37,655 nt of DNA from positions 1 through 37,655 of the forward strand of contig JAFUNP010000019.1 of NCBI GenBank assembly GCA_017473015.1, written 5' to 3'. This document shows, in pieces, positions 12,897-33,749 of the stretch; within the stretch, counting starts at the first letter, position 1; every line of letters begins with the position of its first letter. The notes below the pieces were generated by a model. It had not been told where the DNA came from. It did no database searches and worked only from the letters and a program-made list of their open reading frames with translations. Origin of the DNA: Oscillospiraceae bacterium (GTDB lineage Bacteria > Bacillota > Clostridia > Oscillospirales > Ruminococcaceae). The translations under genes were made by a program, and so were the position numbers.

Positions 12897-12947
12897 AATA
12901 GTATATCCTTTCTCTATCGCCCCTCAGGGCGTTGTTTGTGCTATTAC

Positions 12948-13082: not shown

Positions 13083-13096
13083 TATATAGTAAACAT

Positions 13097-13188: not shown

Positions 13189-13189
13189 G

Positions 13190-13218
13190 AAAACCCTGCA
13201 CCGCCGCAGGGTTTTCCT
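13190..13218 (+). terminator. Terminator of tRNA-Ser
   Basis: Stem AAAACCCTGC / GCAGGGTTTT (13190-13199, 13206-13215), T-rich tail, two bases after the CCA. Confidence 0.85.
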
Positions 13219-13279
13219 TTTGTATGGATAATTTCCTGTGTATATGCTATAATCAGATTAATAAAACCGGGAGGACATT

Positions 13280-13879
13280 ATGAGAAAAAGCAGAGGAGTA
13301 AACAGAAAAAGACTGATACCGCTGGCGGCCATGGTTGCTGTGCTGGCTGTGCTGGCTTTTGTCCAGGGCAGTCTGGGGTTCAGGACAGCCTATGTAATAA
13401 AAACTGTATCAGATGCTGATATGGTGCTGATGGAGGGCACTCCCGTTGTGATAAGAGACGAAACTCCGCGAAAAAACGCTTTTGAAAAATATTCCACAGG
13501 GGATAAAATTCTCCTGGTAACTGATGCTGTTGCGGAAAGCTGGCCCGGCCGTGCTGCTATGCATTGGTGTGTAAAGCTGGATGGTGGCGATTACACCGCT
13601 ATTCCACAGGATATCCGCACCGCACTGAAAGAGTTGGGCTACACCATTGTGGGCGAAATCCTGCTGAATGATGAAAAAGCCGCACCTATACTGGCAGAAT
13701 ACCGGCCGGAGATTGAGTTTATCGAAAAACGGTGTGGTAAAGAAATAGCGATAATTGATGACATCACCATGGATATAATCAAAACCCAAGCCGCCATGCA
13801 GCTGGATAACAAAGATTACCGCTTCGGAGAAATGATGACTGCCTTTGCCGAAAGCATCAGCGGAGGAGAAGCTGTATAA
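13280..13879 (+). CDS. Membrane-anchored protein of unknown function, 199 aa
   Basis: A basic N-terminus followed by one hydrophobic segment (about residues 12-30, LIPLAAMVAVLAVLAFVQG) suggests an uncleaved signal anchor, with the remaining 165 residues outside the membrane. The exposed part is charged and has no motif I recognise; a small SH3-like beta region around residues 65-100 is conceivable. Start follows GGGAGGA; a TATAAT (13248-13253) with weak -35 lies upstream. Transcribed alone. Confidence 0.7.
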   Translation: MRKSRGVNRKRLIPLAAMVAVLAVLAFVQGSLGFRTAYVIKTVSDADMVLMEGTPVVIRDETPRKNAFEKYSTGDKILLVTDAVAESWPGRAAMHWCVKLDGGDYTAIPQDIRTALKELGYTIVGEILLNDEKAAPILAEYRPEIEFIEKRCGKEIAIIDDITMDIIKTQAAMQLDNKDYRFGEMMTAFAESISGGEAV

Positions 13880-16622: not shown

Positions 16623-18770
16623 TTAAGGCTGATAGCCTTTGCGGAATGTGAGGTATACCAGCAGTGCCAGCACAGCGGCAGCAGCAACTGTCCACATACC
16701 AACTGTAGCTTCACCTGTAATCAGGCCAGCAAACTGGTATACAATCATGGATATGGCGTAAGCAAAACCGCACATATATGCGATTGTACCCACAGTCCAC
16801 TTCATATCGCCCATTTCTCTGCGGATAGCACCCATAGCGGCAAAACAAGGGGCGCACAGCAGCTGGAAAATCATAAAGCTGTATGCTCTTACAGGGCCGA
16901 AATCGCTGGCAATCATTGTCCAGATTTCATTGCCTGATTCGCTGAGCTCACCGGCAAAGTTGTACAGCGTACCGAATGTCATAACAACCTGTTCTTTGGC
17001 AATCAGACCTGTGAATGTGGCAACTGTGGCTTTCCACGCCATGTCACCGGCCCAGCCCAGAGGATAGAAAATCCATGAGATTGTTCTGCCGATGTCGGCC
17101 AACAGGGAAAGGTTGGAATCTTCCACTGCCATAAACATACCGTCCACAAAACCGTATGTCTGTAAAAACCACAGCACGATGGAGGACAGCAGAACGATTG
17201 TTGTTGCTCTTTTTACAAAGTCCATACCTCTGTCATATGTAGAACGCAGAACATTTCTTGCGCTTGGCAGATGGTATGCAGGCAGTTCCATTACAAATGG
17301 AGCAGGACGGCCTGCAAAGGTTTTGAATTTTTTCAGGATAACACCGGACACAACCACTGCGGCCACACCGATGAAAAATGCACTTGTTGCCACCAGAGGT
17401 GAATTGCCGAATACCGCACCGGCAAACAGACCGATGATAGGCATTTTGGCACCGCAAGGGATAAAGCCTGTGGTCATTACTGTGATTTTTCTGTCATTTT
17501 CCTGTTCGATTGTACGGCTGGCCAGAATACCAGGTACGCCGCAGCCTGTGGCAACCAGCATAGGAATGATGGATTTGCCGGACAGACCGAATTTTCTCAG
17601 AATTCTGTCCATAATAAAGGCCACACGGGACATATAACCCACATCTTCCAGAATGGACAGCAGGAAGGAAAGCACCAGAATCTGTGGTACAAAGCCCAGT
17701 ACAGCGCCAACGCCGGCCACAATACCGTCCATAACCAGACCGTACAGCCAGCCGCTTACACCCAGAGATGTGAGAATGCTGTCAAACAGTCCCGGTACCC
17801 ATTCGCCGAAAAGTACATCATTTGCCCAGTCAGTACCCATTGTACCGATGGAGAATGAGAAGGAACCCATTGCGATGGCGTACATCAGGAACATAACACC
17901 TGCGAAGATTGGCAGTGCCAGAATTCTGTTTGTAACGATTTTATCAATTTTACCGGAAAGTGTCAGGTCGTGTTTGCCACCCGCTTTTTTCACTGAACGG
18001 CTGCATACATCACCTATATATGTATAACGGCTGTCAGCCACAATGCTTTCAGCATCATCGTCCATTTCAGCCTCACAGTCACGGATGTGCTGTTCCACAT
18101 GGGTCAGTACTTCTTCCGGCAGATTCAGTTCAGAATGGATAACCTCGTCGCGTTCAAACAGCTTGATGGCGTACCAGCGCAGGTAATTGTTGTCCACCAC
18201 ATTTTCGATGGATTCTTCAATGTGTGCCAGTGCGTGTTCCACACCACCCTTGAATACATGCGGCACATCGCCGTGGGTGTGGTTTTTGGCCAGCTCCACC
18301 GCTTTTTCAGCGGCTTCCATACAGCCTTCGTTTTTCAGTGCGGAAATCTCCAGCACAGGACAGCCCAAAGCCTTGCTCAGCTTTTCCACATCAATGTTGT
18401 CGCCGTTTTTGCGGACCAGGTCCATCATATTTACTGCTATAACCACAGGATGACCCAGGTCCAGCAGCTGTGTGGTCAGGTACAGGTTTCTTTCAATGTT
18501 GGTGCCGTCGATGATGTTCAGGATTGCGTCAGGGTGCTCGTTTACCAGATACTGTCTGGTTACCACCTCCTCCGGTGAGTATGGTGACAGAGAGTAAATA
18601 CCCGGCAGGTCCTGTATGATTACATCTTTCTGACCTTTCAGTGTGCCTTCTTTCTTTTCTACAGTTACGCCCGGCCAGTTGCCTACGTACTGGTTAGAGC
18701 CGGTGAGAATGTTGAACAGCGAGGTTTTGCCACTGTTGGGGTTACCGGCCAATGCAATTTTTATACTCAT
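16623..18770 (-). CDS. feoB: Ferrous iron transport protein B, 715 aa
   Basis: N-terminal G protein domain: G1 GNPNSGKTS (residues 8-16), G3 DLPG, G4 NMMD, G5 SALKNEG. A helical insertion follows (about 170-270), then a C-terminal membrane part with two Gate-type repeats, including the conserved ATGCGVPGIL and FIPCGAKMPI cysteines thought to line the pore. Imports ferrous iron across the cytoplasmic membrane. Start ATG preceded by AGAGGAAG. Cotranscribed with feoA upstream and the Cys-rich protein downstream, under two palindromic operators. Confidence 0.97.
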   Translation of the reverse strand: MSIKIALAGNPNSGKTSLFNILTGSNQYVGNWPGVTVEKKEGTLKGQKDVIIQDLPGIYSLSPYSPEEVVTRQYLVNEHPDAILNIIDGTNIERNLYLTTQLLDLGHPVVIAVNMMDLVRKNGDNIDVEKLSKALGCPVLEISALKNEGCMEAAEKAVELAKNHTHGDVPHVFKGGVEHALAHIEESIENVVDNNYLRWYAIKLFERDEVIHSELNLPEEVLTHVEQHIRDCEAEMDDDAESIVADSRYTYIGDVCSRSVKKAGGKHDLTLSGKIDKIVTNRILALPIFAGVMFLMYAIAMGSFSFSIGTMGTDWANDVLFGEWVPGLFDSILTSLGVSGWLYGLVMDGIVAGVGAVLGFVPQILVLSFLLSILEDVGYMSRVAFIMDRILRKFGLSGKSIIPMLVATGCGVPGILASRTIEQENDRKITVMTTGFIPCGAKMPIIGLFAGAVFGNSPLVATSAFFIGVAAVVVSGVILKKFKTFAGRPAPFVMELPAYHLPSARNVLRSTYDRGMDFVKRATTIVLLSSIVLWFLQTYGFVDGMFMAVEDSNLSLLADIGRTISWIFYPLGWAGDMAWKATVATFTGLIAKEQVVMTFGTLYNFAGELSESGNEIWTMIASDFGPVRAYSFMIFQLLCAPCFAAMGAIRREMGDMKWTVGTIAYMCGFAYAISMIVYQFAGLITGEATVGMWTVAAAAVLALLVYLTFRKGYQP

Positions 18771-19057: not shown

Positions 19058-19117
19058 CAGTTAGTATACTCTAACTGTTGCATAAGTTAGTATATACTAA
19101 CTTATATGATATGTCAA
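19058..19117 (-). promoter_or_regulatory. feoA promoter with two GTTAG-N6-CTAAC operators
   Basis: Leftward promoter TTGACA (19117-19112), 17-nt spacer, TATACT (19094-19089). Operator 1 is a perfect 24-base palindrome at 19082-19105 with core GTTAGTATATACTAAC (19086-19101), covering the -10. Operator 2 is GTTAGTATACTCTAAC at 19060-19075, with flanks CAG/CTG, over the transcription start. A weaker third half-match (GTTTG-N6-CTAAC) lies at 19136-19151. The arrangement is that of an iron-responsive repressor (DtxR/MntR- or Fur-like); the regulator gene is not here. Confidence 0.88.
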
Positions 19118-19187
19118 TATTTTACAGCGTATTTTGTTTGATTTTGCTAACTTTTGTCCTGTAAGCCTATTGTTATATATACAAATA

Positions 19188-21093: not shown

Positions 21094-22785
21094 TTATGGT
21101 TTTATAAATTCTTTTGTGCCCTTACCCTCTGCCAGGCGCACAATTGCTGTGCAGTCTGTCAGTGTGGACGGGCGGTGTGATACTATCAGCACCATTTTGT
21201 CGCTGCATTCTTCACGCAGTGTCTTCAGCAGTTCTTTCTCATGGAGAATATCCAGGCTGCTGGTAGGTTCGTCCATTACAATTACATCAGGGTTGGTAAT
21301 CATTGTACGGGCGATGCCTATTCGCTGTTTTTCACCACCGGACAGCCTGCTGCCCATGTTGCCCATTTCTGTATCATATCCCTGTGGCAATGTGGCAATA
21401 AAGTCATGGATACCGGCGCGTTTGGCTGCCAGAACGATTTCTTCCATTGTGGCATCAGGTTTACCTATGGCAATATTCTGTGCGATTGTGCCCCCGAACA
21501 GGAAGGTATCCTGTTCCAACACCGCTATACGGCTGTGCATTTCGTCCGGGTCGGTGTCGCGTATATCAACACCATTGATAAGTATTTCGCCCCTTCTGAC
21601 ATTCCAGAAATGGAGCAACAGTCGGAGAATAGTGGATTTACCGATACCGCTTTCACCCACGATGCCGATTTTTTCATTGCCGCTGATTTCCAGGTTAAAG
21701 CCGTCCAGAATTTTCTTTTCTTCATCTGTATAGTAGAATACCACATTTCTGAACTCTACCTTTTCTATTTTGCCCACCTTTATGGGGTTTTCAGGTTTTG
21801 TCACTTCCGGCACAGTATCTTCCAGTGTGAATACACGCTCAGCAGCGGCGTAGGTTTCCAGCAGGCTGGATACTACCATTGTCAGTGACTGTGTTGATGA
21901 GAATGAGGCTGTGGCCATAAATGAAATTATGATTGTACCGGCAGGGTTTGTGGTACCCCGTGCTGCCAGGTAGCTGGCTACAGCGATAATGGCAATTCTG
22001 GCCAGATATACAAAAAATGTCGGTGCGCTGGATACCAGCTGTTTGTGCAGTGTCAGCCCATGGGCGGCGCGGTTTACCTTATCGTTTGTCTCCAGCACCA
22101 TATTCAGTCGTTTCTGACCAAAGTCAAAAACCTGAATATCCTTAAGCCCATAAATACTTTCCAGTACCTGTGATTTTAATTTGCCCAGATGCACACGGTA
22201 GTCAACACCCACATTTCTGCCCAGTTTTACAGAAACCAGCGGGAAGATAATGCTGATAATCAGATAAATAGGCAGCAGCACCCATGCAAACATAGGATTT
22301 ACCCTGAAAGCTATTGCCAGTGTGGTGCATGGCAGGATAACAACGGTGAACATAGGACCGATTGTATGGGCAAAGAAGAATTCTATTGTTTCAATATCAG
22401 ATACGGCGATATTCATAATATCGCCTTTTTCCCTGTCCATCAGACAGGCCGGTGCCAGTCTGCGTATAACATTGAACAGGTCAACACGCATATATGCCAG
22501 CAGACTGTATGCCCCTGCATGAGATACCACACCCTCGGTGTAACGGCATGCCACAATCAGCGCTGCACACAGTGCCATCAGTCCGCCGTAAAGCAGGGCA
22601 GAGCCATTCAGATAACCGGCTGCATTGAGCAGCATCATGGCCCCAAAACCCATCAGCCCCATCTGTGACAGGTTGCCTATAATACTGGCCAGGGTTGAAA
22701 TTGTCAGCTCTTTTTTTACAGGAGCAGCTATTTTCAGCAGTCTTACAGTCATTTCTCCTATGGAATATTTAAACTTTTTAGCCAT
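21094..22785 (-). CDS. ABC half-transporter (membrane plus ATPase), second of a pair, 563 aa
   Basis: Six-helix type IV ABC membrane domain (residues about 15-310), then an ATPase domain: Walker A GESGIGKST, signature LSGGEKQR, Walker B VIVMDEPTS, switch His in VSHRPSTL. The start lies eight bases inside the preceding gene (ATGGCTAA overlap), so it forms a heterodimer with that product. Family is exporter-like, but iron-regulated pairs of this architecture (YbtPQ, IrtAB) import ferric siderophores. With an operator of the iron type and a divergent AraC regulator, import of a metal chelate is plausible; export of a metallophore is the alternative. Confidence 0.88.
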   Translation of the reverse strand: MAKKFKYSIGEMTVRLLKIAAPVKKELTISTLASIIGNLSQMGLMGFGAMMLLNAAGYLNGSALLYGGLMALCAALIVACRYTEGVVSHAGAYSLLAYMRVDLFNVIRRLAPACLMDREKGDIMNIAVSDIETIEFFFAHTIGPMFTVVILPCTTLAIAFRVNPMFAWVLLPIYLIISIIFPLVSVKLGRNVGVDYRVHLGKLKSQVLESIYGLKDIQVFDFGQKRLNMVLETNDKVNRAAHGLTLHKQLVSSAPTFFVYLARIAIIAVASYLAARGTTNPAGTIIISFMATASFSSTQSLTMVVSSLLETYAAAERVFTLEDTVPEVTKPENPIKVGKIEKVEFRNVVFYYTDEEKKILDGFNLEISGNEKIGIVGESGIGKSTILRLLLHFWNVRRGEILINGVDIRDTDPDEMHSRIAVLEQDTFLFGGTIAQNIAIGKPDATMEEIVLAAKRAGIHDFIATLPQGYDTEMGNMGSRLSGGEKQRIGIARTMITNPDVIVMDEPTSSLDILHEKELLKTLREECSDKMVLIVSHRPSTLTDCTAIVRLAEGKGTKEFIKP

Positions 22786-24538
22786 TGAAAACACTCTCCT
22801 CTCCCTGTTTTTCCAGCAGTGCCTGTTCTTTTACCAGCTGACTGTACAGGCCGCCATTGGTCATCAGCTGTGAGTGGTCACCGCTTTCGGCTATTTCGCC
22901 GGCAGACAGCACATAAATTTTGTCCGCATTTTCTATGGTTGACAGACGGTGGGAAATGATAATCAGCGTTCTGGTCTGTGCCAGTTCATTGATACAGTTC
23001 CATATTTCTCTTTCGCTGTCTATATCAACACTTGATGTGGATTCATCAAAAATAATGTATTCGGCCTTACACAGCAATGCTCTTGCTATGCCTATTTTCT
23101 GTCGCTGACCGCCTGACAGCTTACCGCCGGCATCGCCTACCTGGGTGTTCAGTCCCTCAGGCTGCGCTTTTACCCATTCAGCCAGACGCACATCCTCCAG
23201 TGCTTCCATCAGCTCTGCATCTGTGGCATCCGGCGCGGCTATACGCAGATTTTCTGCCACTGTGCCGCTGAACAGGCTTACCGACTGAGGTACCATAATA
23301 ATTCTTTTTCGCAGTTCGTTGGGCTTTATAGATGTATAATCTCTGCCTTCAATGGTAATTTTACCTTCTTTCAGGTCAAAAAATCTCATCAGCAGACCGG
23401 CAATGGTACTTTTGCCACAGCCGGACAGACCTACCAGCGCAGTCACTTTGTCTTTTTCTATATCAAGGGAAACACCTTTCAGTGCAGTGCTTCTTCCTTC
23501 ATAAGAGTACACAGCATTTTCGATGCGTATACCGTTAAAAGTGTTCTTCTCTACAGGAATGTCAGGGTTGTACGGTCTGGTTGTATCGATTTCCAGCAGT
23601 TTTTCCACCTTGTCTGCGGCAGCCACACCTGTCAGCGCAGAGTGTGTGGCATTCATCAGGGCGCGCAGTGAGCTGAAAAAGCTGTGGGACAGCAACAGTA
23701 CCATCAGAGCACCGCCAAAGTCCATCTGACCGCTGGCCAGCTGGTTGAATGCTATTATAGCTGCCAGTACCACAGTGGAATAAATCATGCCGTCTGTCAG
23801 CAGGAATGATGAAAAGTTTACCACCATAACATCCATTACTTTGTTGTTAAAATCAAAGGACTTTTCGCTGAGGACTTCTGTTCTGGCATCGTCCTGACCA
23901 TACAGCTTAAGTGTGGTCAGTCCCTGGACACTTTCCAGGTAGTAGCCTGTCAGATTTTCAAGGCTTTTCCAATATTCTGTTTTCTTTTCATCTATCTTTT
24001 TGCGGAACACATTGTTTATCGGAACAATAACCACAGCCACCACCAGCAGGATAATTGCGGTCAGCGGCGAATATTCTCTGATTCTGCCATAAAGATAAAA
24101 CGGTGCAATCAGGCAGTAAATCAGACCAGGCAGATATTTGCTGTAGTAAACCTGCATGGATTCCACAGCATCCACACTGGCTGTAATGGCGGACACAGGG
24201 CCTATTTTTTCGATATTGCCTACATCCAGCGCCAGTGCTTTTGCAAATATATCTGCGCGCAGGCTGGCTCTTGCTTTCGCTGTGCAGCGGTATTCCGCTT
24301 CACCTGTCAGCAGTTCTGCGGTCAGCATTACAGCGGCTGTTACCAGTGCAGACAGCACTGCGCCGCCGGCATCAGCAGCAGTCATGGTCGGGGAAGCAAT
24401 GTTCCCCAGAAATCCGGAAATAATCTGCGCAAACTGTGCGGTGCCCACCAGGGTTATCAGCTTTAACCCTACGATTGCACCAATCCAGCCCCACAAACCT
24501 CTGGACATACGGATAAGAGTTTTATTGAGCAGTAACAT
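22778..24538 (-). CDS. ABC half-transporter (membrane plus ATPase), first of a pair, 586 aa
   Basis: Same architecture as its downstream partner: a six-helix membrane domain (about 1-310) and ATPase domain with Walker A GLSGCGKST, signature LSGGQRQK, Walker B IIFDESTSS and SHRLSTIENAD. In the signature the canonical Arg is Lys-like (QRQK), which may weaken one ATP site and leave an asymmetric heterodimer. The membrane half resembles CydD/CydC-type and YbtP/Q-type proteins. The gene is the first of the leftward unit whose promoter carries GTTAGC-N4-GCTAAC. Confidence 0.88.
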   Translation of the reverse strand: MLLLNKTLIRMSRGLWGWIGAIVGLKLITLVGTAQFAQIISGFLGNIASPTMTAADAGGAVLSALVTAAVMLTAELLTGEAEYRCTAKARASLRADIFAKALALDVGNIEKIGPVSAITASVDAVESMQVYYSKYLPGLIYCLIAPFYLYGRIREYSPLTAIILLVVAVVIVPINNVFRKKIDEKKTEYWKSLENLTGYYLESVQGLTTLKLYGQDDARTEVLSEKSFDFNNKVMDVMVVNFSSFLLTDGMIYSTVVLAAIIAFNQLASGQMDFGGALMVLLLSHSFFSSLRALMNATHSALTGVAAADKVEKLLEIDTTRPYNPDIPVEKNTFNGIRIENAVYSYEGRSTALKGVSLDIEKDKVTALVGLSGCGKSTIAGLLMRFFDLKEGKITIEGRDYTSIKPNELRKRIIMVPQSVSLFSGTVAENLRIAAPDATDAELMEALEDVRLAEWVKAQPEGLNTQVGDAGGKLSGGQRQKIGIARALLCKAEYIIFDESTSSVDIDSEREIWNCINELAQTRTLIIISHRLSTIENADKIYVLSAGEIAESGDHSQLMTNGGLYSQLVKEQALLEKQGEESVFNG

Positions 24539-24667: not shown

Positions 24668-24722
24668 TTGACAAATAAACCATAATCGGCTTATAATCCA
24701 AATATAGTTAGCGTGTGCTAAC
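24668..24722 (+). promoter_or_regulatory. Promoter and iron-type operator of the AraC regulator gene
   Basis: TTGACA (24668-24673), 18-nt spacer, TATAAT (24692-24697), then operator GTTAGCGTGTGCTAAC at 24707-24722 covering the start of transcription. A GTG at 24715 lies inside the operator and is therefore not the translation start. Confidence 0.87.
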
Positions 24723-24750
24723 TGCAAACAAAAAGCAAAAGCGTGATTTT

Positions 24751-25728
24751 ATGACAGATGAAAAGAAAAATTTATTTATAACTGACAGAAAAAAAGAAGT
24801 TCTGCCTGACGGTGGCATACGAACATCTATGATGACAGAAAAAGGGGATATACGGCAGACAAAATACTGCGTATTTCCGGGGATAAACCTGTTTTACAAC
24901 GATATACATATTTCCAACAGCTACGGTAAAGCAAAGCAGGGACTGGACAATATATTTGAAATAAATCACTGCCGTGAAGGCAGACTGGAGTGCCATGTAG
25001 GCGATGAGTATTTCTATATTTCGCCGGGAGATATATCCATGCACCTGATACACAGTGTGGACCGCCGGGAAAGCTTTCCTACCAGCCATTATCACGGTGT
25101 CACCGTGCAGATTGACCTGAATAAATGCCCTGCATCCCTGACTGAATTTCTGCCGGATATAAACGTAAAGCCTGCACAGATAGCAGAAAAATTCGGACTG
25201 CAGAACAAAAATTTTTACATTCTTCGTCGGATGCCGGAAATTGAGCATATATTTTCAGAACTGTACAAAGCACCCGAAACGGTGAAAAAAGGATATTTCA
25301 GTCTGAAAATACTGGAGCTGATGTTGTTTCTTGACGGCATCAATCCCACCGTGGAGCAGAATGAAGCGGTGTCAATATCCGGTGTACAGGCAAGCACTGC
25401 CCACGAAATAAGCAGATACATAAACGCCAATCTGGACAAAAAACTGACACTGAAGGAACTGTCAGAAAAATTTGATATATCTGTTTCATATATAAAGAAT
25501 ATTTTCAATGCAGTATATGGTATGAGCGTTACAAAGTATATACGCAGCCAGCGTATATCACAGGCTGCTGCCTTGCTGGAAAAAACCGACCGAACAGTAC
25601 TGGATATATCCGGTCAGCTGGGGTATGAAAACAGCAGTAAATTTGCAGCGGCTTTCCGCAGAGTGATGGGCGTAAGTCCTGCCCAATACCGAAAAAGAGG
25701 CTTCAACAGCAGAAAAGAGGATGTCTGA
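24751..25728 (+). CDS. AraC-family transcriptional regulator, 325 aa
   Basis: N-terminal sensor domain with cupin-like features (ISPGDISMHLIHSVDRR, about residues 85-105) and C-terminal double helix-turn-helix of the AraC type: LTLKELSEKFDISVSYIKNIFNAVYGMSVTKYI and VLDISGQLGYENSSKFAAAFRRVMGVSPAQYR. I start at the ATG at 24751 because an earlier in-frame GTG is inside the operator. Such regulators activate iron-acquisition genes when their chelate is present (YbtA, AlcR). The gene is divergent from the half-transporters and next to the nitrogenase-like operon, which it probably activates. Its end overlaps its own terminator. Confidence 0.9.
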   Translation: MTDEKKNLFITDRKKEVLPDGGIRTSMMTEKGDIRQTKYCVFPGINLFYNDIHISNSYGKAKQGLDNIFEINHCREGRLECHVGDEYFYISPGDISMHLIHSVDRRESFPTSHYHGVTVQIDLNKCPASLTEFLPDINVKPAQIAEKFGLQNKNFYILRRMPEIEHIFSELYKAPETVKKGYFSLKILELMLFLDGINPTVEQNEAVSISGVQASTAHEISRYINANLDKKLTLKELSEKFDISVSYIKNIFNAVYGMSVTKYIRSQRISQAAALLEKTDRTVLDISGQLGYENSSKFAAAFRRVMGVSPAQYRKRGFNSRKEDV

Positions 25729-25847: not shown

Positions 25848-25863
25848 GTTAGCGTATGCTAAC
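25848..25863 (+). promoter_or_regulatory. Iron-type operator of the nitrogenase-like operon
   Basis: GTTAGCGTATGCTAAC: half-sites identical to those at the half-transporter and AraC promoters. It lies 11 bases before the AGGAGG of the NifH-like gene. Confidence 0.88.
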
Positions 25864-25889
25864 TTGCATATAAAACAGGAGGATATATA

Positions 25890-26642
25890 TTGAGAAAAAT
25901 AGCTATCTATGGCAAAGGCGGTATCGGTAAATCAACCACCACATCAAACCTTTCCGCTGCTCTTGCCAATAAAGGATATAAAGTTATGCAGATAGGCTGC
26001 GACCCTAATGCAGACTCTACAAAAAATCTGATGAAAGGCAAAAGAATTCCTACTGTTCTGGAGCAGATAAAGGCAAAAGGCGAGGACCTGACACTGGAAG
26101 ACATAGTATTTGAAGGTTATGCCGGTGTGCTGTGTGTGGAGTCCGGCGGTCCTACACCGGGTGTGGGCTGTGCCGGCAGAGGCATTATCTCTGCCTTTGA
26201 AAAGCTGGAAGAGCTGGACGCCTTTGGCAGATATAAACCGGATATTGTTATATACGATGTTCTGGGTGACGTTGTGTGCGGTGGTTTTGCAATGCCTATC
26301 CGCGGCGGCTATGCCAAAGATGTTTATGTGGTTTCATCCGGTGAAATGATGTCACTGTATGCAGCCAACAATATTGCAGCAGCTATCCGCAACTTTGGCA
26401 AAAGAGGCTATGCCCAGCTGAAAGGTCTTATCCTCAACGCCAAAAACATTGAAAATGAAATTGAAATTGTAAACAAGGCGCTGGAAGAAATCGGCACAAC
26501 AATGGTGCAGTATATTCCGCGTTCACCTGAAATTCAGGAAGCTGAAAATCAGGGCGGCACAGTGTTTGAATTCCTTACAGATTCACATATGCAGTCTGTT
26601 TACAATCAGCTGGCAGATAAAATTATCAGCCGGGAAGAATAA
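25890..26642 (+). CDS. NifH-like iron protein (nitrogenase-type reductase component), 250 aa
   Basis: Homodimeric ATPase that passes electrons from a bridging [4Fe-4S] cluster to a NifDK-like partner. Walker [10 protein letters not shown] (residues 8-16), switch [10 protein letters not shown] with Asn40 where nitrogenase NifH has Lys, cluster ligands Cys94 (GVGCAGRG) and Cys130 ([13 protein letters not shown]), switch II D-V-L-G-D-V. At 250 residues it lacks the long C-terminus of true NifH. The start is TTG at 25890, seven bases after AGGAGG, because no ATG fits. First gene of the operon; no nifB, nifE/N or nifV is near, so it is not molybdenum nitrogenase. Confidence 0.95.
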
Positions 26643-26665
26643 ATCAATACACAGGAGAAACTATT

Positions 26666-27655
26666 ATGAAAAAACTTTTATCACTTATGCTGGCTCTTGT
26701 AATGTCAGCCAGCCTTTTCACAGCCTGCTCCGCACCTGATACCGAAGCAGAAACAGAAACAACAAAATTCACTCTTACATACCCTGAATCCATGACAGCA
26801 CAGGGCTATGAACCACTGGTGCTGGATGAAGCGCCATCCAGAATCGCATGCACATCCACATCTCCAGTTCTCACACTGGATGCCATGGGTGCATCCCTTA
26901 TAGCTATTCCATCTTCCACAGCCACAAAACATATTGTTGATGCCAACCCTGATATGACAATTCTGAAAAGCCTGATGAGCGATGAATTCAACATTGAAGA
27001 CGTGGTTGCACTGAACCCTGACCTGGTTATCCTGGCTGCTTCTTATAAAGATTCTCACGGTGCTACACTGGAAAGCCTGGGTATCAATGTTTACTACCAG
27101 GCAGCAGGTCACGGCGTTTCCTATGAAACAGTAAAAGAAGAATCCATGTGTCTGATTGACGCATTTGCAATCGATGAAGAAAGTAAGGCAAAAGCTGATG
27201 CGCTGAAACAGAGCTTTGCAGATATTGAAGACAAATGCGAAACACTGGCAGCAGCAAATGAAGGTAAAAAAATCATGGTTCTGCAGGCAGGCGGCCCTAC
27301 ACAGGTTTACGGCCAGACATCCGGTGGCACACTGGGCTCTATGCTGAATATGCTGGGCTTTGAAAATGTGTCTGACTCCACAGCCGCTGCATCAATGTTT
27401 GCAATCGACTATGAAACTGCACTGGTTGACCAGCCAGAAATGCTGGTTATTGTAGGCTCCGGTGATGCCGCTGCTTCAAAAACACTGATGGGCCAGATTA
27501 TTGAGTCCAACCCTGCATACTGGAACGCTATGACAGCTGTAGCTGAAGAAAACATTATGTATCTGGGCAGAGAATACATTGCTGTGTATGGCATCGGCTA
27601 TGTAGATGCACTGGAAACTCTGGCAACAGAAGTAGAAACATTTTACGCAGAATAA
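26666..27655 (+). CDS. Iron-chelate/cobalamin-type ABC substrate-binding lipoprotein (FecB-like), 329 aa
   Basis: Lipoprotein signal peptide with lipobox LFTAC (Cys21), then a type III (BtuF/FhuD-like) two-lobe fold: SRIACTSTSPVLTLDAMG, NIEDVVALNPDLVILAA, and a C-lobe ending in GIGYVDALETLATEVE. These proteins bind ferric siderophores, heme or cobalamin for FecCD-type permeases. The ligand is not fixed by sequence. Placed between the NifH-like gene and its permease and ATPase, it ties the nitrogenase-like enzyme to uptake of a metal chelate. Confidence 0.92.
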   Translation: MKKLLSLMLALVMSASLFTACSAPDTEAETETTKFTLTYPESMTAQGYEPLVLDEAPSRIACTSTSPVLTLDAMGASLIAIPSSTATKHIVDANPDMTILKSLMSDEFNIEDVVALNPDLVILAASYKDSHGATLESLGINVYYQAAGHGVSYETVKEESMCLIDAFAIDEESKAKADALKQSFADIEDKCETLAAANEGKKIMVLQAGGPTQVYGQTSGGTLGSMLNMLGFENVSDSTAAASMFAIDYETALVDQPEMLVIVGSGDAAASKTLMGQIIESNPAYWNAMTAVAEENIMYLGREYIAVYGIGYVDALETLATEVETFYAE

Positions 27656-27664
27656 GGGTAAAGT

Positions 27665-28708
27665 ATGGCAAAAAAGCTTAAAAGAAACCGGGGCAGCGTA
27701 AAGCTGCTCCGCGTTGGTTTATTATGGACTTTTCTGATAGTGATGATAACAGTGCTGTCACTTGTTGCTGTGAATATAGGCAGTGTGAAATTTCCTGTAT
27801 CACAGATTTTCAAATCCGTATTTTCTGACCGGTCACTCCTTACAGATGAGCAGGCAGTAATCAGGACCATTGTTATGAACCTGCGCCTGCCCCGTGTGAT
27901 TATAGCCATTCTCATAGGTGCCTGTCTGTCAGCGTCAGGGGCACTGCTGCAGGCGGTAATGCGCAACCCTCTGGCAGACCCGGGCTCCATCGGCGTTTCA
28001 GCCGGTGCAGGCACAGCGGCCATCACAGTGCTGCTGATTTTCCCAAATATGACCACAGCACTGCCTGTGTTTGCATTTGTGGGTGCGGCCTTTGCCTGTG
28101 TGCTTATCTATCTGCTGGCCTGGCAGGACGGTGTAAGCCCTGTGCGAATTATTCTTGCAGGTGTGGCAATCAACTCTGTACTGGGTGCATACAACTCCCT
28201 GCTGCAGCTGATGAACAGCGACAATCTGACAGGTGTGCTGGCATTTATGAACGGCAGTCTGGCAGGTATGTCCTGGACACATGTACGCACCATAATCATC
28301 TATTCTGTACTGGGTATTGCCCTGGCTATGCTGTGCATCCGCCATGCCAACGCCCTGCAGCTGGGGGACGAAATGGCAAAAAATCTGGGTGTGCGTGTAA
28401 ACGCTGCCAGAATTGCCCTGTCTGCTGTATCCGCCTTTCTGGCAGCTGCCACAGTATCTGTGGTTGGTATGATAAGCTTTGTAGGGCTGGTGGTACCGCA
28501 TATTTCCCGTATGCTGGTGGGCTCTGACTATAAGGTAATGCTGCCTACATCTGTGCTGATGGGCAGTGTGACTTTGCTGGTGGCAGACACCATAGGCCGC
28601 ACCATAGTGCCGGGCATGGAAATCCCTGTGGGGATAATTATGTCTGTGTGCGGCGGTCCTTTCTTCCTGTATATGCTGAGAAAGAGAGGTAAATACAATG
28701 AAGGCTGA
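27665..28708 (+). CDS. FecCD/BtuC-type ABC permease, 347 aa
   Basis: About ten hydrophobic segments with family marks: RLPRVIIAILIGACLSASGALLQAVMRNPLADPGSIG near residues 77-113 and LVVPHISRMLVGSDYK near 277-292. Imports ferric siderophores, heme or cobalamin. Single gene for the homodimer. Begins ten bases after the lipoprotein stop and overlaps the next gene by 11. Confidence 0.95.
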   Translation: MAKKLKRNRGSVKLLRVGLLWTFLIVMITVLSLVAVNIGSVKFPVSQIFKSVFSDRSLLTDEQAVIRTIVMNLRLPRVIIAILIGACLSASGALLQAVMRNPLADPGSIGVSAGAGTAAITVLLIFPNMTTALPVFAFVGAAFACVLIYLLAWQDGVSPVRIILAGVAINSVLGAYNSLLQLMNSDNLTGVLAFMNGSLAGMSWTHVRTIIIYSVLGIALAMLCIRHANALQLGDEMAKNLGVRVNAARIALSAVSAFLAAATVSVVGMISFVGLVVPHISRMLVGSDYKVMLPTSVLMGSVTLLVADTIGRTIVPGMEIPVGIIMSVCGGPFFLYMLRKRGKYNEG

Positions 28709-29504
28709 CAATAACGCAATCAAGGTTCATCTGGTGGCTGATTCTCTGGAAATCGGCTACGGCGACCATGTAATCGTAGAAAATATGGATGTGGAAATAC
28801 GCAAAGACCGTATCACCACCATCATCGGGCCAAACGGCTCCGGCAAATCCACCGTGTTGAAAGCCATAACACGCCTTATCCGCTATCAGAAAGGCAGTGT
28901 AATGCTGGATAACAGAGACATTCTGACAATGAAGCCAAAGGAGTTTGCCCGCATTATCGGCGTGCTGCCACAGGTGCACAGCGCCCCTGCTGATTTCAGG
29001 GTAAAGGAGCTGGTGAGCTACGGCAGAATGCCACACCAGAAGCTGCTGGCCGGTCTGAACGCAGAAGACGAAAGAATTATAAAATGGGCTATGGAGGCCA
29101 CAGGCACCTGGCAGTTCAGGGACAAATCCATTTTTGAAATCTCCGGTGGTGAACGCCAGCGAGTATGGATTGCCACTGTTCTGGCACAGCAGCCGGAAAT
29201 ACTGTTCCTTGACGAGCCTACCACCTATCTGGATATAGCACACCAGCTGGACACAATGGCTCTGGTAAAAAGGCTGAACAGGGAAACAGGCATAGGCGTG
29301 GTTATGGTTCTCCACGACCTGACACAGGCTCTGGAAATCAGCGACCATATAATAGTTATCAAAAACGGCAAAAAATACAGTGAAGGCACACCACAGCAGG
29401 TTATCACCCCACAGATGATGAAGGATGTTTACGATGTGGACTGTGACATCATTACTGTTCCCGGCAGAGAAAAACCGCTGATAGCATATAAACAATTAGT
29501 ATAA
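28698..29504 (+). CDS. FecE/BtuD-type ABC ATPase, 268 aa
   Basis: Walker A GPNGSGKST, signature ISGGERQR (Ile instead of Leu), Walker B ILFLDEPTTYLD, switch His in LHDLTQ. Energises the preceding permease. The stop at 29502-29504 adjoins the ribosome site of the NifD-like gene. Confidence 0.95.
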   Translation: MKADNNAIKVHLVADSLEIGYGDHVIVENMDVEIRKDRITTIIGPNGSGKSTVLKAITRLIRYQKGSVMLDNRDILTMKPKEFARIIGVLPQVHSAPADFRVKELVSYGRMPHQKLLAGLNAEDERIIKWAMEATGTWQFRDKSIFEISGGERQRVWIATVLAQQPEILFLDEPTTYLDIAHQLDTMALVKRLNRETGIGVVMVLHDLTQALEISDHIIVIKNGKKYSEGTPQQVITPQMMKDVYDVDCDIITVPGREKPLIAYKQLV

Positions 29505-29518
29505 TGGAGATATATAAT

Positions 29519-30823
29519 ATGGGTTTAAACGGCAATGAAATGATAAGTAAAATGAAGCGTTTAAGTCAGGTATCCAATATGAAACAGGTAAAACCTCTTT
29601 CATATGCACTTTTTCCGGGGTATCACTGCCCGCTGATGGGTGCAATGCTGACCATAAAAGAGATAGACAATTCTGTTATGGTGGTAATAGGGCCTGACGA
29701 ATGCGCTTACTATACAAAAATGGCCACATCCGGCGGCAATATGAGGGCCAACGGCTGTGAAATAGTGTCTGTTGTTCTTGACCAGCACGATGTTACTTTC
29801 GGCTGTCAGGAAAAAATGGACGAAGCCTTTGAAGAGCTGATGGAAGAATATAACCCGCAGGCGGTGTATCTGGTAACCACCTGTGTGGTAGAGGTTATCG
29901 GCGATGATATTGACGCCATGGCACGGGGTTATTCCCGCCAGTATGGTCTGCCTGTGATTGTTGTTCATGCAGAAAACTTCAAGACAGACGACCACCTGCC
30001 AGGCATTGAGCACACAATGGACGCCAGCATTGACATTATGGAAAAACAGGAAATCACAGACACTGTAAATGTGCTGGGTCTGCGCCTGGGGGATTTTACA
30101 AAATCAGAAGCCTACCGCTTTATATCTGAAAGCGGCACAGCTGTGGCTATGATGCTACCGGGCAAATCTTCCGCACAGCAGATAAAAACAGCACCACAGG
30201 CAAAATGCAATATTGTGGTGCATCCTGTGGGACTGCCCCTGGCAAAGGAAATGGAAGAAAAATTCGGCACACCGTATGTGGTGTTTGAACGCTACAGCGA
30301 CTCGGACAGAATTTATGACTGCTACAAACAGCTGTTTGAAAAACTGGAAAAGCCAATGCCACAGGAGATTGATGAACTGTATGCCGCTGCAAAAGAAAAG
30401 ACAGCCAGCGCACAGCAGGCGCTACGGGGCAAGACATATATCAGCGGCAATACCGCCTTGTGCAACTATGAGTTTCATCTGTTCCTTGCAGACAAGCTGG
30501 GCATGACACCGCTGCTGCTGCAGATTTCTGACCTTGATGCAGACAGTGATGAATTCAGGGCACAGTTGCTGAAAAAACGGGACCCTTATATAACAAGAGC
30601 CGCAAACATCGGTGCTATGCAGTACCTGTACCCAATTCTGAAACCGGATTTCAATATGGGTGCCGGCAATTCTGTGGAAATGCGCAGAAACGGCATTGCA
30701 ACAGTGCGCATGATGGGTGCATACAACACTCTGGGTTTTGAAGTGTCCGACCTTGTTGTCCGTGCCTTTATAATGGCAGAAAAAGAATTACAGATGATGA
30801 AAAACGGAGGTATACACAGATGA
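29519..30823 (+). CDS. NifD-like nitrogenase component 1 subunit, 434 aa
   Basis: Oxidoreductase/nitrogenase component 1 fold. Three cysteines align with the P-cluster ligands of NifD: Cys37 (PGYHCPLMGA), Cys62 (GPDECAYYT) and Cys122 (TTCVVEVIGDDI). The FeMo-cofactor Cys region reads VVHPVG with no cysteine, and the cofactor His segment is absent, so FeMo-co binding is unlikely. I use the ATG at 29519 after GGAGA; an in-frame ATG at 29504 has no ribosome site. Overlaps the next gene by four bases (ATGA), consistent with an obligate heterodimer. Confidence 0.92.
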   Translation: MGLNGNEMISKMKRLSQVSNMKQVKPLSYALFPGYHCPLMGAMLTIKEIDNSVMVVIGPDECAYYTKMATSGGNMRANGCEIVSVVLDQHDVTFGCQEKMDEAFEELMEEYNPQAVYLVTTCVVEVIGDDIDAMARGYSRQYGLPVIVVHAENFKTDDHLPGIEHTMDASIDIMEKQEITDTVNVLGLRLGDFTKSEAYRFISESGTAVAMMLPGKSSAQQIKTAPQAKCNIVVHPVGLPLAKEMEEKFGTPYVVFERYSDSDRIYDCYKQLFEKLEKPMPQEIDELYAAAKEKTASAQQALRGKTYISGNTALCNYEFHLFLADKLGMTPLLLQISDLDADSDEFRAQLLKKRDPYITRAANIGAMQYLYPILKPDFNMGAGNSVEMRRNGIATVRMMGAYNTLGFEVSDLVVRAFIMAEKELQMMKNGGIHR

Positions 30824-32055
30824 GTTTATGTAGATTTTACCCTGCTCCATCAGATAGAATGGCCATTATCTGGTCACTTATGCCGGTAAAGAATGCAGTT
30901 GTTCTGGAATACGGCCCTGCAGGCACAACACATTTTGGCGGCGGTCTGTACAGTTCTTTCGGCATTGAACTGGGCAGGACACTGTACACCACCCACATCA
31001 GTGAAGATGATGTAATTATGGGTGATGTTTCCCGTCTGGAAAATGCCATCCGCGAAGTGGATGCCGCATATAATCCGGAAATTATTTTCGTGGTGGCTTC
31101 TGCCGTTATTGCCGTTATTGGCACAGATATTGCCGGTGTGTGCCGGTATATGCAGGAGGAAGTGAATGCCCGACTGATTTCCTTTGAAGAAGGGGGCTTC
31201 CGCGGTGACTACACCTACGGTCTTAAATCTGTTTACCGTATGCTGGCAAAAGAAGTTGTACAGCCAACTGATGAAAAGGAAAAGGTTTTCAATATTCTTG
31301 GCGCTTCCCTGGGTGCATGGCGCATGCGCAGCGATGTGTGGGAAATACAGCAGCTGATGAAAGAGGCCTTTGGCTGGGACTGCCACTTTGTAATGGGTAT
31401 GGAATGCAATGTGGAAGATATTGAAACTGCAGGCAAAGCAGCAGTAAATCTGGTTATCAGAAATGAAGCATTGCAGGCGGCCGAAATAATAAAAGACAAA
31501 TGCGGCACCCCTTATGTTTACGGTGCACCATATGGCTACAAAGGCACTCTGGAATGGCTGAAGCAGATTGCACAGGTTATCGGCCAGGAAATCAACCCTG
31601 CACTGGTAAAACGTCTGGAAGAAAAAATCAGGCGCCTTATGCCTATGGGAGGTCCTATGGCAATGGGTCTGACAAGAGAAAAGCCAAAGGCATATCTGCA
31701 GGCTGATTATGACACTCTGCTGGGCTTTAAACAGGCAATGACAGAGCTGGATATTGATGTGGCCGGTATGATATGCAGCCACAGTCTGAAAAGCATTGAA
31801 GTGGCTGACCGGCAGATTAAGCATTATCCAAAGGAGAAAGACAGAATCAATCTGTTCAAATCAGTGAAAAACCGGTGGTGCCTTGGCAGTGAAGAAATGG
31901 AAAGGTACTGTGGGGAGGATAACTGTTTTACACTTATCAGCGCTCCTTTCGTTTCCCGTTCACAGACAGCAACACACCTGCCGTTTATGGGCGAAAAGGG
32001 CATGGACTATCTGGTTGAGCTTAAAAGCGGACTTAACAGAAAAATCAATATATAG
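30820..32055 (+). CDS. NifK-like nitrogenase component 1 subunit, 411 aa
   Basis: Same fold family as its neighbour. The positions equivalent to the second and third P-cluster cysteines are Thr36 (YGPAGTTHFG) and Ala (VVASAVIAVIGTDI); only Cys4 (SLCRFYPAP) could serve as a ligand. Combined with three cysteines in the NifD-like partner, this predicts a single asymmetric [4Fe-4S] cluster at the interface, as in BchNB (three Cys from one subunit, one ligand from the other). GGAGG lies nine bases before the start. Final gene of the operon. Substrate unknown. Confidence 0.9.
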   Translation: MSLCRFYPAPSDRMAIIWSLMPVKNAVVLEYGPAGTTHFGGGLYSSFGIELGRTLYTTHISEDDVIMGDVSRLENAIREVDAAYNPEIIFVVASAVIAVIGTDIAGVCRYMQEEVNARLISFEEGGFRGDYTYGLKSVYRMLAKEVVQPTDEKEKVFNILGASLGAWRMRSDVWEIQQLMKEAFGWDCHFVMGMECNVEDIETAGKAAVNLVIRNEALQAAEIIKDKCGTPYVYGAPYGYKGTLEWLKQIAQVIGQEINPALVKRLEEKIRRLMPMGGPMAMGLTREKPKAYLQADYDTLLGFKQAMTELDIDVAGMICSHSLKSIEVADRQIKHYPKEKDRINLFKSVKNRWCLGSEEMERYCGEDNCFTLISAPFVSRSQTATHLPFMGEKGMDYLVELKSGLNRKINI

Positions 32056-32060
32056 CAAAA

Positions 32061-32088
32061 AACACAGCTTAACCGCTGTGTTTTTTTA
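32061..32088 (+). terminator. Terminator of the nitrogenase-like operon
   Basis: Stem AACACAGC / GCTGTGTT (32061-32068, 32075-32082) with T run, six bases after the stop. Confidence 0.9.
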
Positions 32089-32095
32089 CTGATTA

Positions 32096-32141
32096 TTGAC
32101 TACAATCAAAAACAGAATTATAATAGTAAGCAGAAGCTAAC
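32096..32141 (+). promoter_or_regulatory. Promoter and iron-type operator of the methyltransferase-hydrolase unit
   Basis: TTGACT (32096-32101), 17-nt spacer, TATAAT (32119-32124), then operator GTAAGCAGAAGCTAAC at 32126-32141 (one mismatch to GTTAGC-N4-GCTAAC) over the transcription start. A separate, equally iron-type control point within the locus. Confidence 0.85.
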
Positions 32142-32163
32142 CTGTTATCACAAGAGGTGCAAT

Positions 32164-32808
32164 ATGAAAAACAACGAAAAAGATTTTGTGAAACTGTCAG
32201 AAAAATGGTTTGACAATCAGGCCAGAACATATGATGAAACAGACACCATACTGTATTCAAAATACGGCAAAATCAGCTGTAAGAACATCTATGATTATCT
32301 GGCAGACAAAGAATATGATACACTGCTGGATGTGGGCTGTGGCACAGCGTATCTGATTGACCTGCTGGTGCAGACACACAGTGCAAAGCATACAGGGCTG
32401 GATTTATCTTCTGAAATGATAAAACAGGCACAGAGCAAAAATATACCAAATACAGAATTTGTGGTTGCCCGCTCAGACAATATGCCTTTTGCTGACAATA
32501 CTTTTGATGTTGTCACCTGTTCACAGAGCTTTCATCACTACCCGGATACAGATAAAGCCATGCAGGAGGCACTGCGCGTGCTGAAGCCGGGTGGGTTATA
32601 TATCCTGTCTGACACAGGCGTAGGCTTTTTCAAAGATTTTGGTGTGATGGTAGATAATTTTGTATACAGATATTTCAGCAACACAGGAGACTGCAATGTG
32701 TCCTATCTGGAAAAATCCATCCGTGACCTGGAACGCAACGGTTTCGAAATAATAAAAGGCGAAAAAGTTACCACATTTATCTATACAATCGTGGCAAGAA
32801 AGAAGTGA
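32164..32808 (+). CDS. Class I SAM-dependent methyltransferase, 214 aa
   Basis: Motif I LLDVGCGTAYLIDLL (about residues 56-70), acidic GLDLSSEMI, then FDVVTCSQSFHHYPD and EALRVLKPGGLYILSD. This is the UbiE/COQ5-like Methyltransf_11 pattern for small-molecule substrates. Cytoplasmic. Under its own iron-type operator, with the hydrolase gene overlapping its stop, so it likely modifies a ligand processed by the upstream system. Possible jobs: methylating a released organic fragment, or maturation of a metallophore. Confidence 0.92.
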   Translation: MKNNEKDFVKLSEKWFDNQARTYDETDTILYSKYGKISCKNIYDYLADKEYDTLLDVGCGTAYLIDLLVQTHSAKHTGLDLSSEMIKQAQSKNIPNTEFVVARSDNMPFADNTFDVVTCSQSFHHYPDTDKAMQEALRVLKPGGLYILSDTGVGFFKDFGVMVDNFVYRYFSNTGDCNVSYLEKSIRDLERNGFEIIKGEKVTTFIYTIVARKK

Positions 32809-32816
32809 GTTATTTT

Positions 32817-33713
32817 ATGACACTGGCAGAATTGAATGTAAAAGCAGAATGGGAATATTACAATACTGTTGCCCCTTTTAAAACTTTTCTGATTGACGGA
32901 AACGAGATGAAATACCGCTATTATCAGAAAGAAAATTCTAAAGCAACTATTGTTGTTTTAGCCGGCGGTTCAGGTCTGGCAGACGGTTTTTTCCTGTTTC
33001 TGCGCAGCCTGATGGACAGATATTCCCTTATAACAATACCTTATCCCCTGTTCTGCAAGGACAATAACCGGACCGCAGATGCTATCGCAGAACTTATACG
33101 ATATTTAAAAGCAGAAAATGTGTATTACTGGGGCCAGTCCTACGGTGGCCTGTTGGCGCAGATTATTGCCAAAAGGCATCCTGATGTTGTCAACGGACTG
33201 CTGCTGACCTCCACTGCTTCTTTCTCAACAGAGCTGACTTTCCAGGGCATGAAATGCCTTGTGAATATGATAAACGAAGAAAAAGAAGCAAAGCGTGTGG
33301 CAAAATACCAGAAAATGCCTTTAAAGCTGGCTATGGCTATGTTTCCGCTGATGTTCAAACCACATCTGCATGGCGACAAAAAGGCCTATGCCACAATAAA
33401 AGAGCTGATAAAAATTCTGGAGCCGCAGATGAGCAAAGACCACTTTGTACATATGACACATCTGCTGGGGGATTTGAGAAATCATTTCGGTATGTACAGT
33501 AAAAAGGATTTTGAATATTTAAAAGGCAGGGTTCTGATTATCGAGCCAAAGGACGATACAACCTTTACAGTTGACATCAAAACCGCTTTGTTCAATATGA
33601 TGCCACAGCCACAGGTAATTGATGAGGTGGACGGCGGACATCTGGCCATTATGTTCAATCCAGATGGCTATATTAAGCTGATTGATGATTTTATATCCGG
33701 AACCGGAGAATAA
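32817..33713 (+). CDS. Alpha/beta hydrolase, 298 aa
   Basis: Serine hydrolase fold: oxyanion region VVLAGGSGLADG, nucleophile elbow GQSYGG, acid in IIEPKDDTTF and His in DGGHLAIM. A lid-like helical insert lies between about residues 145 and 215. Substrate unknown; siderophore esterases are one precedent for such a neighbour of iron transporters. The start is uncertain: ATG at 32817, or GTG at 32805 overlapping the methyltransferase stop; neither has a strong ribosome site. Confidence 0.88.
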   Translation: MTLAELNVKAEWEYYNTVAPFKTFLIDGNEMKYRYYQKENSKATIVVLAGGSGLADGFFLFLRSLMDRYSLITIPYPLFCKDNNRTADAIAELIRYLKAENVYYWGQSYGGLLAQIIAKRHPDVVNGLLLTSTASFSTELTFQGMKCLVNMINEEKEAKRVAKYQKMPLKLAMAMFPLMFKPHLHGDKKAYATIKELIKILEPQMSKDHFVHMTHLLGDLRNHFGMYSKKDFEYLKGRVLIIEPKDDTTFTVDIKTALFNMMPQPQVIDEVDGGHLAIMFNPDGYIKLIDDFISGTGE

Positions 33714-33717: not shown

Positions 33718-33749
33718 AAAAGCCGGACTGAAAAACAGTCCGGCTTTTT
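33718..33749 (+). terminator. Terminator of the methyltransferase-hydrolase unit
   Basis: Thirteen-base stem AAAAGCCGGACTG / CAGTCCGGCTTTT with a 5-nt loop and T run. Confidence 0.92.

Follow-up and report, generated by a model that had tools for sequence, protein, structure and literature searches.

A nitrogenase-like operon with its own importer and iron-type operators: a candidate heme-acquisition module of strict anaerobes

Heme is plentiful in the gut, and how strict anaerobes without known heme-breaking enzymes get its iron is poorly known. Contig JAFUNP010000019.1 of an Oscillospiraceae bacterium (assembly GCA_017473015.1), the whole 37,655 nucleotides of which are called the window in the following, contains six close genes for a nitrogenase-like Fe protein (H), an ABC importer consisting of substrate-binding protein (SBP), permease and ATPase, and two nitrogenase-like subunits (D and K), preceded by an operator of iron type. 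Judging from sequence comparisons, we propose with a probability of roughly 0.58 that this operon is an iron-controlled module of strict anaerobes for acquisition of heme, or a close iron-tetrapyrrole, whose enzyme would reduce the ligand and free Fe(II). Directly visible in the sequences are the genes and how far they are conserved, the operators, the enzyme's ligand pattern and, in some relatives, neighbouring genes of heme uptake. An initial annotation of this DNA had placed a NifH/D/K-like trio together with FecB, FecCD and FecE genes in one operon, which is borne out by the Pfam matches and the close spacing of the six genes:

25848..25863, no strand: operator GTTAGC-N4-GCTAAC before H, exact palindrome
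25890..26642, plus strand: H, NifH-like Fe protein, 250 aa, TTG start; PF00142 (Fer4_NifH) 2.3e-98
26666..27655, plus strand: SBP, substrate-binding lipoprotein of FecB type; Peripla_BP_2 2.1e-21
27665..28708, plus strand: FecCD-type permease; PF01032 5.4e-91
28698..29504, plus strand: FecE-type ATPase; PF00005 (ABC_tran), FecE model 276 of 375 bits
29504..30823, plus strand: D, NifD/NifE-like subunit, 439 aa; PF00148 (Oxidored_nitro) 2e-57
30820..32055, plus strand: K, NifK/NifN-like subunit, 411 aa; PF00148 (Oxidored_nitro) 1.5e-63

H, SBP and permease genes are separated by 23 and then 9 bases, and the later junctions overlap by 11, 1 and 4 bases.

The nitrogenase-like enzyme

What kind of enzyme do H, D and K encode? 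H stays under all family cut-offs of NCBIfam (CfbC 348 of 402 bits, NifH 340 of 394, BchL 222 of 345), and the nitrogenase cut-offs are unmet by D (75 of 654 bits, nifD) and K (28 of 427, nifK). The best NCBIfam model for both D and K is NifE, far under its cut-off with 105 and 127 of 505 bits, and the BchB model (59 and 85 of 490 bits) and the CfbD model (D 49, K 41 of 268 bits) leave their cut-offs unmet as well. D and K are the sole PF00148 matches in the genome, which is given as 99% complete; in the search for nif system partners, which did not include a genome-wide search for NifB, no further PF00148 gene was found there. A second PF00142 match is weak (32.9 bits) and lies away from the locus.

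Cys42, Cys67 and Cys127 of D align with the cluster cysteines of NifD and BchN and are invariant in the 48-row D alignment. In K the three P-cluster cysteines are replaced, by Asp12 in the column of NifK Cys70, by Thr36 in the column of Cys95 and BchB Asp36, and by Ala at the third position; Asp12 is Asp in 50 of the 55 rows of the K alignment, Thr36 and His38 are found in all 55. That the FeMo-co cysteine is missing, as initially annotated, is correct, the column of NifD Cys275 holding a His and that of His442 a Leu. The pattern favours a D/K that would hold one [4Fe-4S]-like cluster, bound by three cysteines and a non-cysteine fourth ligand, over a P-cluster or FeMo-co, and it is nearer to that of DPOR than to that of nitrogenase.

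A phylogeny of the subunits, which had been suggested as a check on the initial annotation, places D and K on branches of their own. In a 67-row tree, quickly made, midpoint-rooted, with long Bch branches and without CfbD rows, the D rows form one branch together with D rows of a sister branch (support 100) and the K rows form another (support 91), both standing apart from the Nif/Vnf, Mar-like and Bch rows. When 119 genomes of the phylum were searched for a CfbD to serve as reference, none gave a match over the cut-off. The unassigned pair of locus L059 falls inside the D and K branches beside Treponema rows; at 7635-13729 this locus has H and two PF00148 proteins followed by genes that by eye are HypF-like and HypC-like, resembling the hydrogenase-maturation group of PMC3464626. 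In some drafts a subunit is broken up: D is split over two frames in L101 and L185 (4074-5730) and K over two in L175 (4838-6060), through draft errors or decay.

Operators and iron control

The exact operator GTTAGC-N4-GCTAAC is present in 11 copies in the 1.97-Mb genome, as against about 0.1 expected from base composition; three of the copies are in the window. Two of the eight copies outside the window precede a unit with a flavodoxin. Five more each stand before a single gene, the products being an HMA-domain protein, a ZIP transporter, a second CydD-like protein, a Trep_Strep membrane protein and a protein resembling pyruvate-formate-lyase; the copy at C3:34859 was left unassigned. Operators with one mismatch precede feoA, feoB and CobW, and feoAB is adjoined by a DtxR-type repressor gene. 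The description of these operators as iron-type is thus supported by the exact copies, by feoAB among the regulon and also by the relatives of the operon, since a DtxR- or Fur-type box with at most two mismatches lies before H in 40 of 68 loci, as compared to 18 of 468 control upstream regions of the same loci (Fisher 4e-28, a p-value that is too small as some loci are near-copies). The boxes divide into 27 of GTTAGC type and 13 of Fur type with no locus carrying both, and if these motifs are read rightly two unrelated repressor types would meet at the same operon.

Some further sites may be mentioned. A gene that by eye is FeoB-like (16623-18770, minus strand) has three degenerate operator-like sites upstream (19060-19151), two of which are of GTTAGTATA type and not of GTTAGC type. 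The operator-controlled CobW-type GTPases of the window genome (C32, L048) have relatives near the operon in L134 (4312-5256) and L157 (12463).

Spread and conservation of the operon

With D as query at 1e-10, matches were found in 17 of 198 genomes including the window's own, two of them strong (1e-126 or better) and 14 distant. A D profile at 1e-40, with the window genome counted, matched 7 of 396 genomes of the family, 9 of 391 of the class and 11 of 398 of the phylum, with three matches each in class and phylum belonging to the sister branch. Scanning one genome per species (84,980 species) yielded 84 relatives, of which 80 were kept, giving 81 loci with the window. According to record titles the carriers are Lachnospiraceae, other Clostridia, Clostridium and its kin, Phascolarctobacterium, Alkaliphilus, Tissierella and spirochaetes.

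In 65 of the 81 loci a single strand carries H, permease, ATPase, D and K collinearly, all within 9 kb, and in 60 of these 65 an SBP match lies between H and permease. In 11 of the 16 non-collinear loci the contig stops within 5 kb of D; the transporter is found before H or after K in L119, L161 and L165, and no permease match was obtained in L150 and L176. These counts, for all six genes, are from tblastn, which replaced counts of longest open reading frames (ORFs) that were too low in GC-rich loci because antisense frames had been picked; the counts of heme markers given below still rest on longest ORFs.

Heme-uptake genes beside the operon in relatives

What could the importer bring in? The initial annotation had suggested a metal chelate or tetrapyrrole, and heme is the likely ligand because some relatives of the operon lie among NEAT, class B sortase (SrtB), IsdE, HugZ, ChaN and TonB genes and next to a flavodoxin of FldH type. 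NEAT proteins were found with our own profiles in 6 of 81 loci, 3 of which also have a class B sortase, these counts being without a control of FecCD-type operons in general. The proteins scanned from L142, L160, L162 and L165 all match NEAT, one from L142 lying just below cut-off; L162 in addition matches IsdC (below cut-off) and sortase B (237 bits, cut-off 154), and a neighbour in L165 has Shr-like hemoglobin-interacting and NEAT domains. In L162, from Alkaliphilus transvaalensis, the H-permease-ATPase-D-K series is followed by the flavodoxin, then by IsdE-like, NEAT and sortase B genes and lastly by two ABC half transporters, the first of them CydD-like. Genome searches found NEAT above the cut-off in the genomes that carry L156, L160 and L163, and in 17 of 382 genomes of the class sample versus 3 of 8 class carriers besides the window genome (Fisher 0.004, with an approximate denominator and with one of the three carriers, G434, weak and far from the operon). 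Among carrier entries, several of which were chosen knowing of NEAT, it was found in 12 of 41.

HugZ-like genes are present in 7 of 81 loci, and one scanned, L142, is nearer to the window's proteins. TonB receptors are present in 6 loci and ChaN in one (L140, Phascolarctobacterium; PF04187, 184 bits), where it flanks the operon. In Phascolarctobacterium, whose D and K group with those of the window on the tree, TonB receptors flank the operon. The best NCBIfam model is TonB-hemin for the receptors of L119, L121 and L132, and the L135 receptor matches a hemoglobin/transferrin model, all below cut-off; the TonB scores do not tell heme from B12.

A flavodoxin is found in 23 of 81 loci, including L110 and L138, whose match lacks the aligned cap. 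In the PDB the operon flavodoxins are closest to Fusobacterium FldH (8G64; 6e-28 for L162, 3e-11 for L118). FldH is a paralogue of HmuF, and according to the excerpts considered each of the two binds FMN as well as heme and hands heme over to HmuW, which breaks it down anaerobically, the heme iron in FldH being bound by His134 (PMC10404700). Every one of the 28 rows extending to the corresponding column has His there, among 32 matches in 31 of 105 neighbour stretches, some of which repeat a genome.

Binding proteins point in the same direction in part of the group. The best NCBIfam match of the window SBP is IsdE (1e-15, 58 of 299 bits), and IsdE is the top family for three of the five SBPs scanned in this way (L162, L163 and L173; 239-268 of 298.65 bits), all of which keep both the Met and the His of IsdE. 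The L173 SBP aligns with the solved Staphylococcus aureus IsdE at 3.5e-44, its Met82 and His235 standing at the positions of this pair, which we take to be the heme ligands. In an alignment of 26 binding proteins, a subset of those found, the ten IsdE-type rows have the His in 10 and the Met in 7 cases.

A radical-SAM gene of HutW type, the route of the anaerobilin synthases HutW and ChuW, exceeded its cut-off in just one of the 33 carrier entries, which stand for 31 different genomes (L113/G971 and L165/G380 being entered twice); the best score in the window genome (G000) was 158 of 400 bits, below cut-off. In Phascolarctobacterium faecium (L188, L221) a HutW gene over cut-off lies 0.3 kb from a further flavodoxin homologue, a pair that can be likened to hmuF adjoining hmuW, and the same genome has an H-D-K operon; if both are real, one organism would have two anaerobic heme routes. 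In Acidaminobacter sp. JC074 (L170) a HutW-type gene at 726-1994 (235 bits, cut-off 400) lies about 4.6 kb before H and may encode a further anaerobic heme enzyme near the operon.

Proposed function and alternatives

How might such a system release iron from heme? The FecB/FecCD/FecE-type importer would bring in heme or a close chelate, which in many carriers an FldH-type flavodoxin could deliver to the enzyme. ATP-driven H would pass low-potential electrons to the cluster of D, and D/K would reduce the ring stepwise. Porphyrinogens do not hold metal ions, and the tetrapyrrole enzymes of the superfamily reduce rings; for these two reasons a reduction past the porphyrin level is proposed, and Fe(II) would be lost most simply since a ring at the porphyrinogen level no longer holds it. 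The enzyme would thereby take the place that oxygen-dependent heme oxygenases have in Isd systems. That heme is the ligand in the window organism, that its ring is reduced and that iron is released we infer from the relatives and from the superfamily. A wider claim, to which we give slightly less than even odds, is that the operon defines a new heme-processing class: a nitrogenase-like, ATP-dependent, oxygen-free heme reductase with a heme-binding flavodoxin as partner in many carriers, occurring in clostridia of gut and environment, Negativicutes and some spirochaetes as strict-anaerobe counterpart of IsdG, the sister branch perhaps treating other ferric chelates.

Several observations weigh against heme. 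The evidence for it stems from relatives; in the window genome neither NEAT nor an FldH-type flavodoxin was found, HugZ and ChaN not having been searched there. No D match at 1e-10 was obtained in 15 congeners, and markers besides the flavodoxin are present in just 18 of 81 loci. The PDB entries closest to the window SBP are of siderophore or iron-complex kind (2e-8 to 7e-6, an iron-complex protein leading at 2e-8), with IsdE well behind at 0.004; the window SBP keeps the IsdE Met (Met104) and has no His at the IsdE position; among the 16 window-type rows of the SBP alignment 13 have the Met and none the His, and the L141 SBP has no IsdE match at 1e-12. The permease matches the FhuB, BtuC and FecD models alike, all below cut-off, so that hydroxamate, B12 and citrate are not distinguished. 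The two HugZ-like proteins scanned reach 134 and 94 bits against a cut-off of 240, and of the L140 receptors one fits B12 best and the other a general model, both below cut-off. ZIP and CobW genes in the regulon of the window genome leave room for metals other than iron. Finally, in the sister branch, plasmid pSPTER of Sporomusa termitida (L200, 4179-12310) carries H-D-K with a siderophore-type TonB receptor, two permeases and an esterase of PF00756, a family that includes siderophore esterases; on plasmid pTS1 of Treponema saccharophilum (L205, 8944-15240) H-D-K is followed by an importer. For the group as a whole an imported iron chelate would therefore be a firmer designation than heme, and heme appears firmest in the Clostridium-Alkaliphilus part.

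These observations could be accommodated if the enzyme reduced ferric siderophores or other ferric chelates, the heme neighbours reflecting clustering of iron genes in some lineages. The Sporomusa gene set, the resemblance of the window SBP to solved iron-complex and siderophore proteins and the unspecific permease would fit such a role; yet a six-gene, ATP-driven nitrogenase-like machine would seem to exceed the needs of ferric reduction, and NEAT, SrtB, IsdE and FldH-type flavodoxin genes recur beside a conserved operon, which makes this explanation unlikely. A corrinoid as ligand, to be reduced or stripped by the enzyme, would agree with the 248 of 461 bits that the BtuC model gives the permease and with TonB-B12 models scoring near or above TonB-hemin in Phascolarctobacterium receptors, but the NEAT, HugZ-like, ChaN and FldH-type partners point to heme and the operators are iron-type, leaving it improbable. 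Still less probable is a NifEN-like scaffold or metal-insertion device whose metal is supplied by the transporter. This guess was made in 2012 (excerpts of PMC3464626), and NifE is indeed the best, if far from sufficient, model for D and K; however, the large neighbour clusters include no conspicuous client metalloenzyme, D has no counterpart of NifE Cys275, and D and K have no PF00148 companion in the genome. Sulfur acquisition, raised as an alternative in the initial annotation and here taken to be Mar- or Isr-like, found little support and is the least probable of all. In its favour, Mar and Isr are Group IV nitrogenase-like enzymes with genes of their own (PMC11423573 and PMC12552129, in the parts considered), and among the 45 largest neighbour clusters the sulfur link consists of MetB-like and MalY-like pyridoxal-phosphate enzymes assigned by eye, in 3 of 105 stretches each. 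A radical-SAM gene is absent from the operon and from these clusters, the subunits have neither the six-cysteine P-cluster nor Cys/His cofactor ligands, and again the operators are of iron type.

Genes adjoining the operon

21094..22794, minus strand: CydC-like ABC half transporter; TIGR02868 CydC 314.9 of 329 bits
22778..24538, minus strand: CydD-like ABC half transporter behind the operator at 24565; TIGR02857 CydD 361 of 435 bits
24565-24580: operator before the CydDC-like pair, exact
24707-24722: operator before the AraC-type gene, exact
24715..25728, plus strand: AraC-type regulator adjoining the operon, own operator at 24707; HTH_18 1.6e-21
32126..32141, no strand: operator GTAAGC-N4-GCTAAC before the methyltransferase gene, just after a promoter-like site, one mismatch
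32164..32808, plus strand: SAM methyltransferase, own operator, outside the core; Methyltransf_11 1.6e-27
32805..33713, plus strand: alpha/beta hydrolase, paired with the methyltransferase, outside the core; Abhydrolase_1 1.3e-8

The methyltransferase and hydrolase genes had been counted to the operon in the initial annotation. This did not hold, and the idea of one eight-gene operon was dropped, as K is followed by a terminator-like stem at 32057-32086, then by a promoter-like site (11 of 12) at 32096-32124 and by the one-mismatch operator; a second terminator-like stem (33718-33748) follows the pair. In the stretch around K and methyltransferase, terminator-like sites number 6 versus a shuffle mean of 1.6, and promoter-like sites 4 versus 4.9, that is without excess. 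The locus would thus consist of 6 + 2 genes, the latter two probably forming a separate unit, a division based on consensus matches and not on transcripts. Co-occurrence, proposed at the outset as a check for all eight genes, holds for H, permease, ATPase, D and K in the collinear loci and fails for the other two: methyltransferase relatives are found in 7 of 105 stretches and the hydrolase is outside the 45 largest neighbour clusters, for which reason both were dropped as core partners.

AraC-like genes are found in 39 of 81 loci. In the window a 12-of-12 promoter-like site (24668-24697) precedes the AraC-type gene and is followed by the exact operator at 24707. The ABC half-transporter pair, which had been labelled YbtPQ-like, was relabelled CydDC-like after scoring with the CydD and CydC models; among relatives the first half of L162 alone was scored in this way, the others keeping the earlier label. 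Escherichia coli CydDC has been reported as heme transporter (PMC10374445, in excerpt), and the pair adjoining the operon (21094-24538, minus strand) perhaps transports heme, porphyrin or a thiol. The window genome's second CydD-like gene, itself behind an operator, encodes a protein 47-58% identical to operon neighbours in L147, L150, L162 and L163; NEAT and sortase B are present in two of these four loci, L162 and L163. A separate ABC transporter set (SBP, permease and ATPase, read by eye) lies at 10557-12896 on the minus strand.

Comparison with known systems

Clostridial NifEN-like genes adjoining ABC transporters, with three P-cluster cysteines in D and none in K, were described before and metal transport for cofactor assembly was guessed (Dos Santos 2012, PMC3464626). 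As far as its description goes, this group from Clostridium botulinum and Alkaliphilus resembles the window in H, transporter ATPase, three-cysteine D, cysteine-less K and clostridial carriers, and in the excerpts considered it is given no function, iron control or heme neighbours. The initial statement that no characterised relative combines such a transporter with iron-type operators therefore stands for function and has to be amended for the neighbourhood, which is already in print; the heme job is newly proposed. In a literature survey covering open literature and few preprints, no function, heme link or iron operators for this gene set appeared in the titles and abstract beginnings of the papers listed. 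The word nitrogenase is absent from the main text of PMC6311696 on iron regulation in Clostridioides difficile and has a count of 0 in the heme review PMC12670364.

DPOR and COR (BchLNB, BchXYZ) are similar in their ATP-driven reduction of tetrapyrroles, in the three cysteines of the N/D subunit and in the non-cysteine residue of BchB at the Cys95 position. They differ in that K of the window has Thr36 in the column of BchB Asp36 and an Asp in that of Cys70, and they are separate on the tree; no chlorophyll genes were seen. CfbCD reduces a Ni-tetrapyrrole and its CfbC is the model with which H scores best, whereas the window has two subunits, D and K, and the CfbD model is far under cut-off. 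With Mar and Isr the window shares the Group IV H-D-K composition; it differs in having no radical-SAM gene in the operon, no six-cysteine P-cluster and no cofactor ligands.

The known anaerobic routes of heme use are ring opening by radical-SAM enzymes (HutW/ChuW/HmuW) and de-chelation by HmuS (excerpts of PMC12583661). The proposed module is like Isd and Hmu uptake in its importer and, in some relatives, in NEAT/SrtB or TonB parts and an FldH/HmuF-type flavodoxin beside the operon, and unlike them in having a nitrogenase-like enzyme in place of IsdG, HmuW or HmuS. If the proposal is true, a Group IV gene set that had no function in the surveyed literature since 2012 would gain one, and a catabolic role would be added to a superfamily that serves nitrogen fixation, synthesis of pigments and cofactors, and sulfur scavenging.

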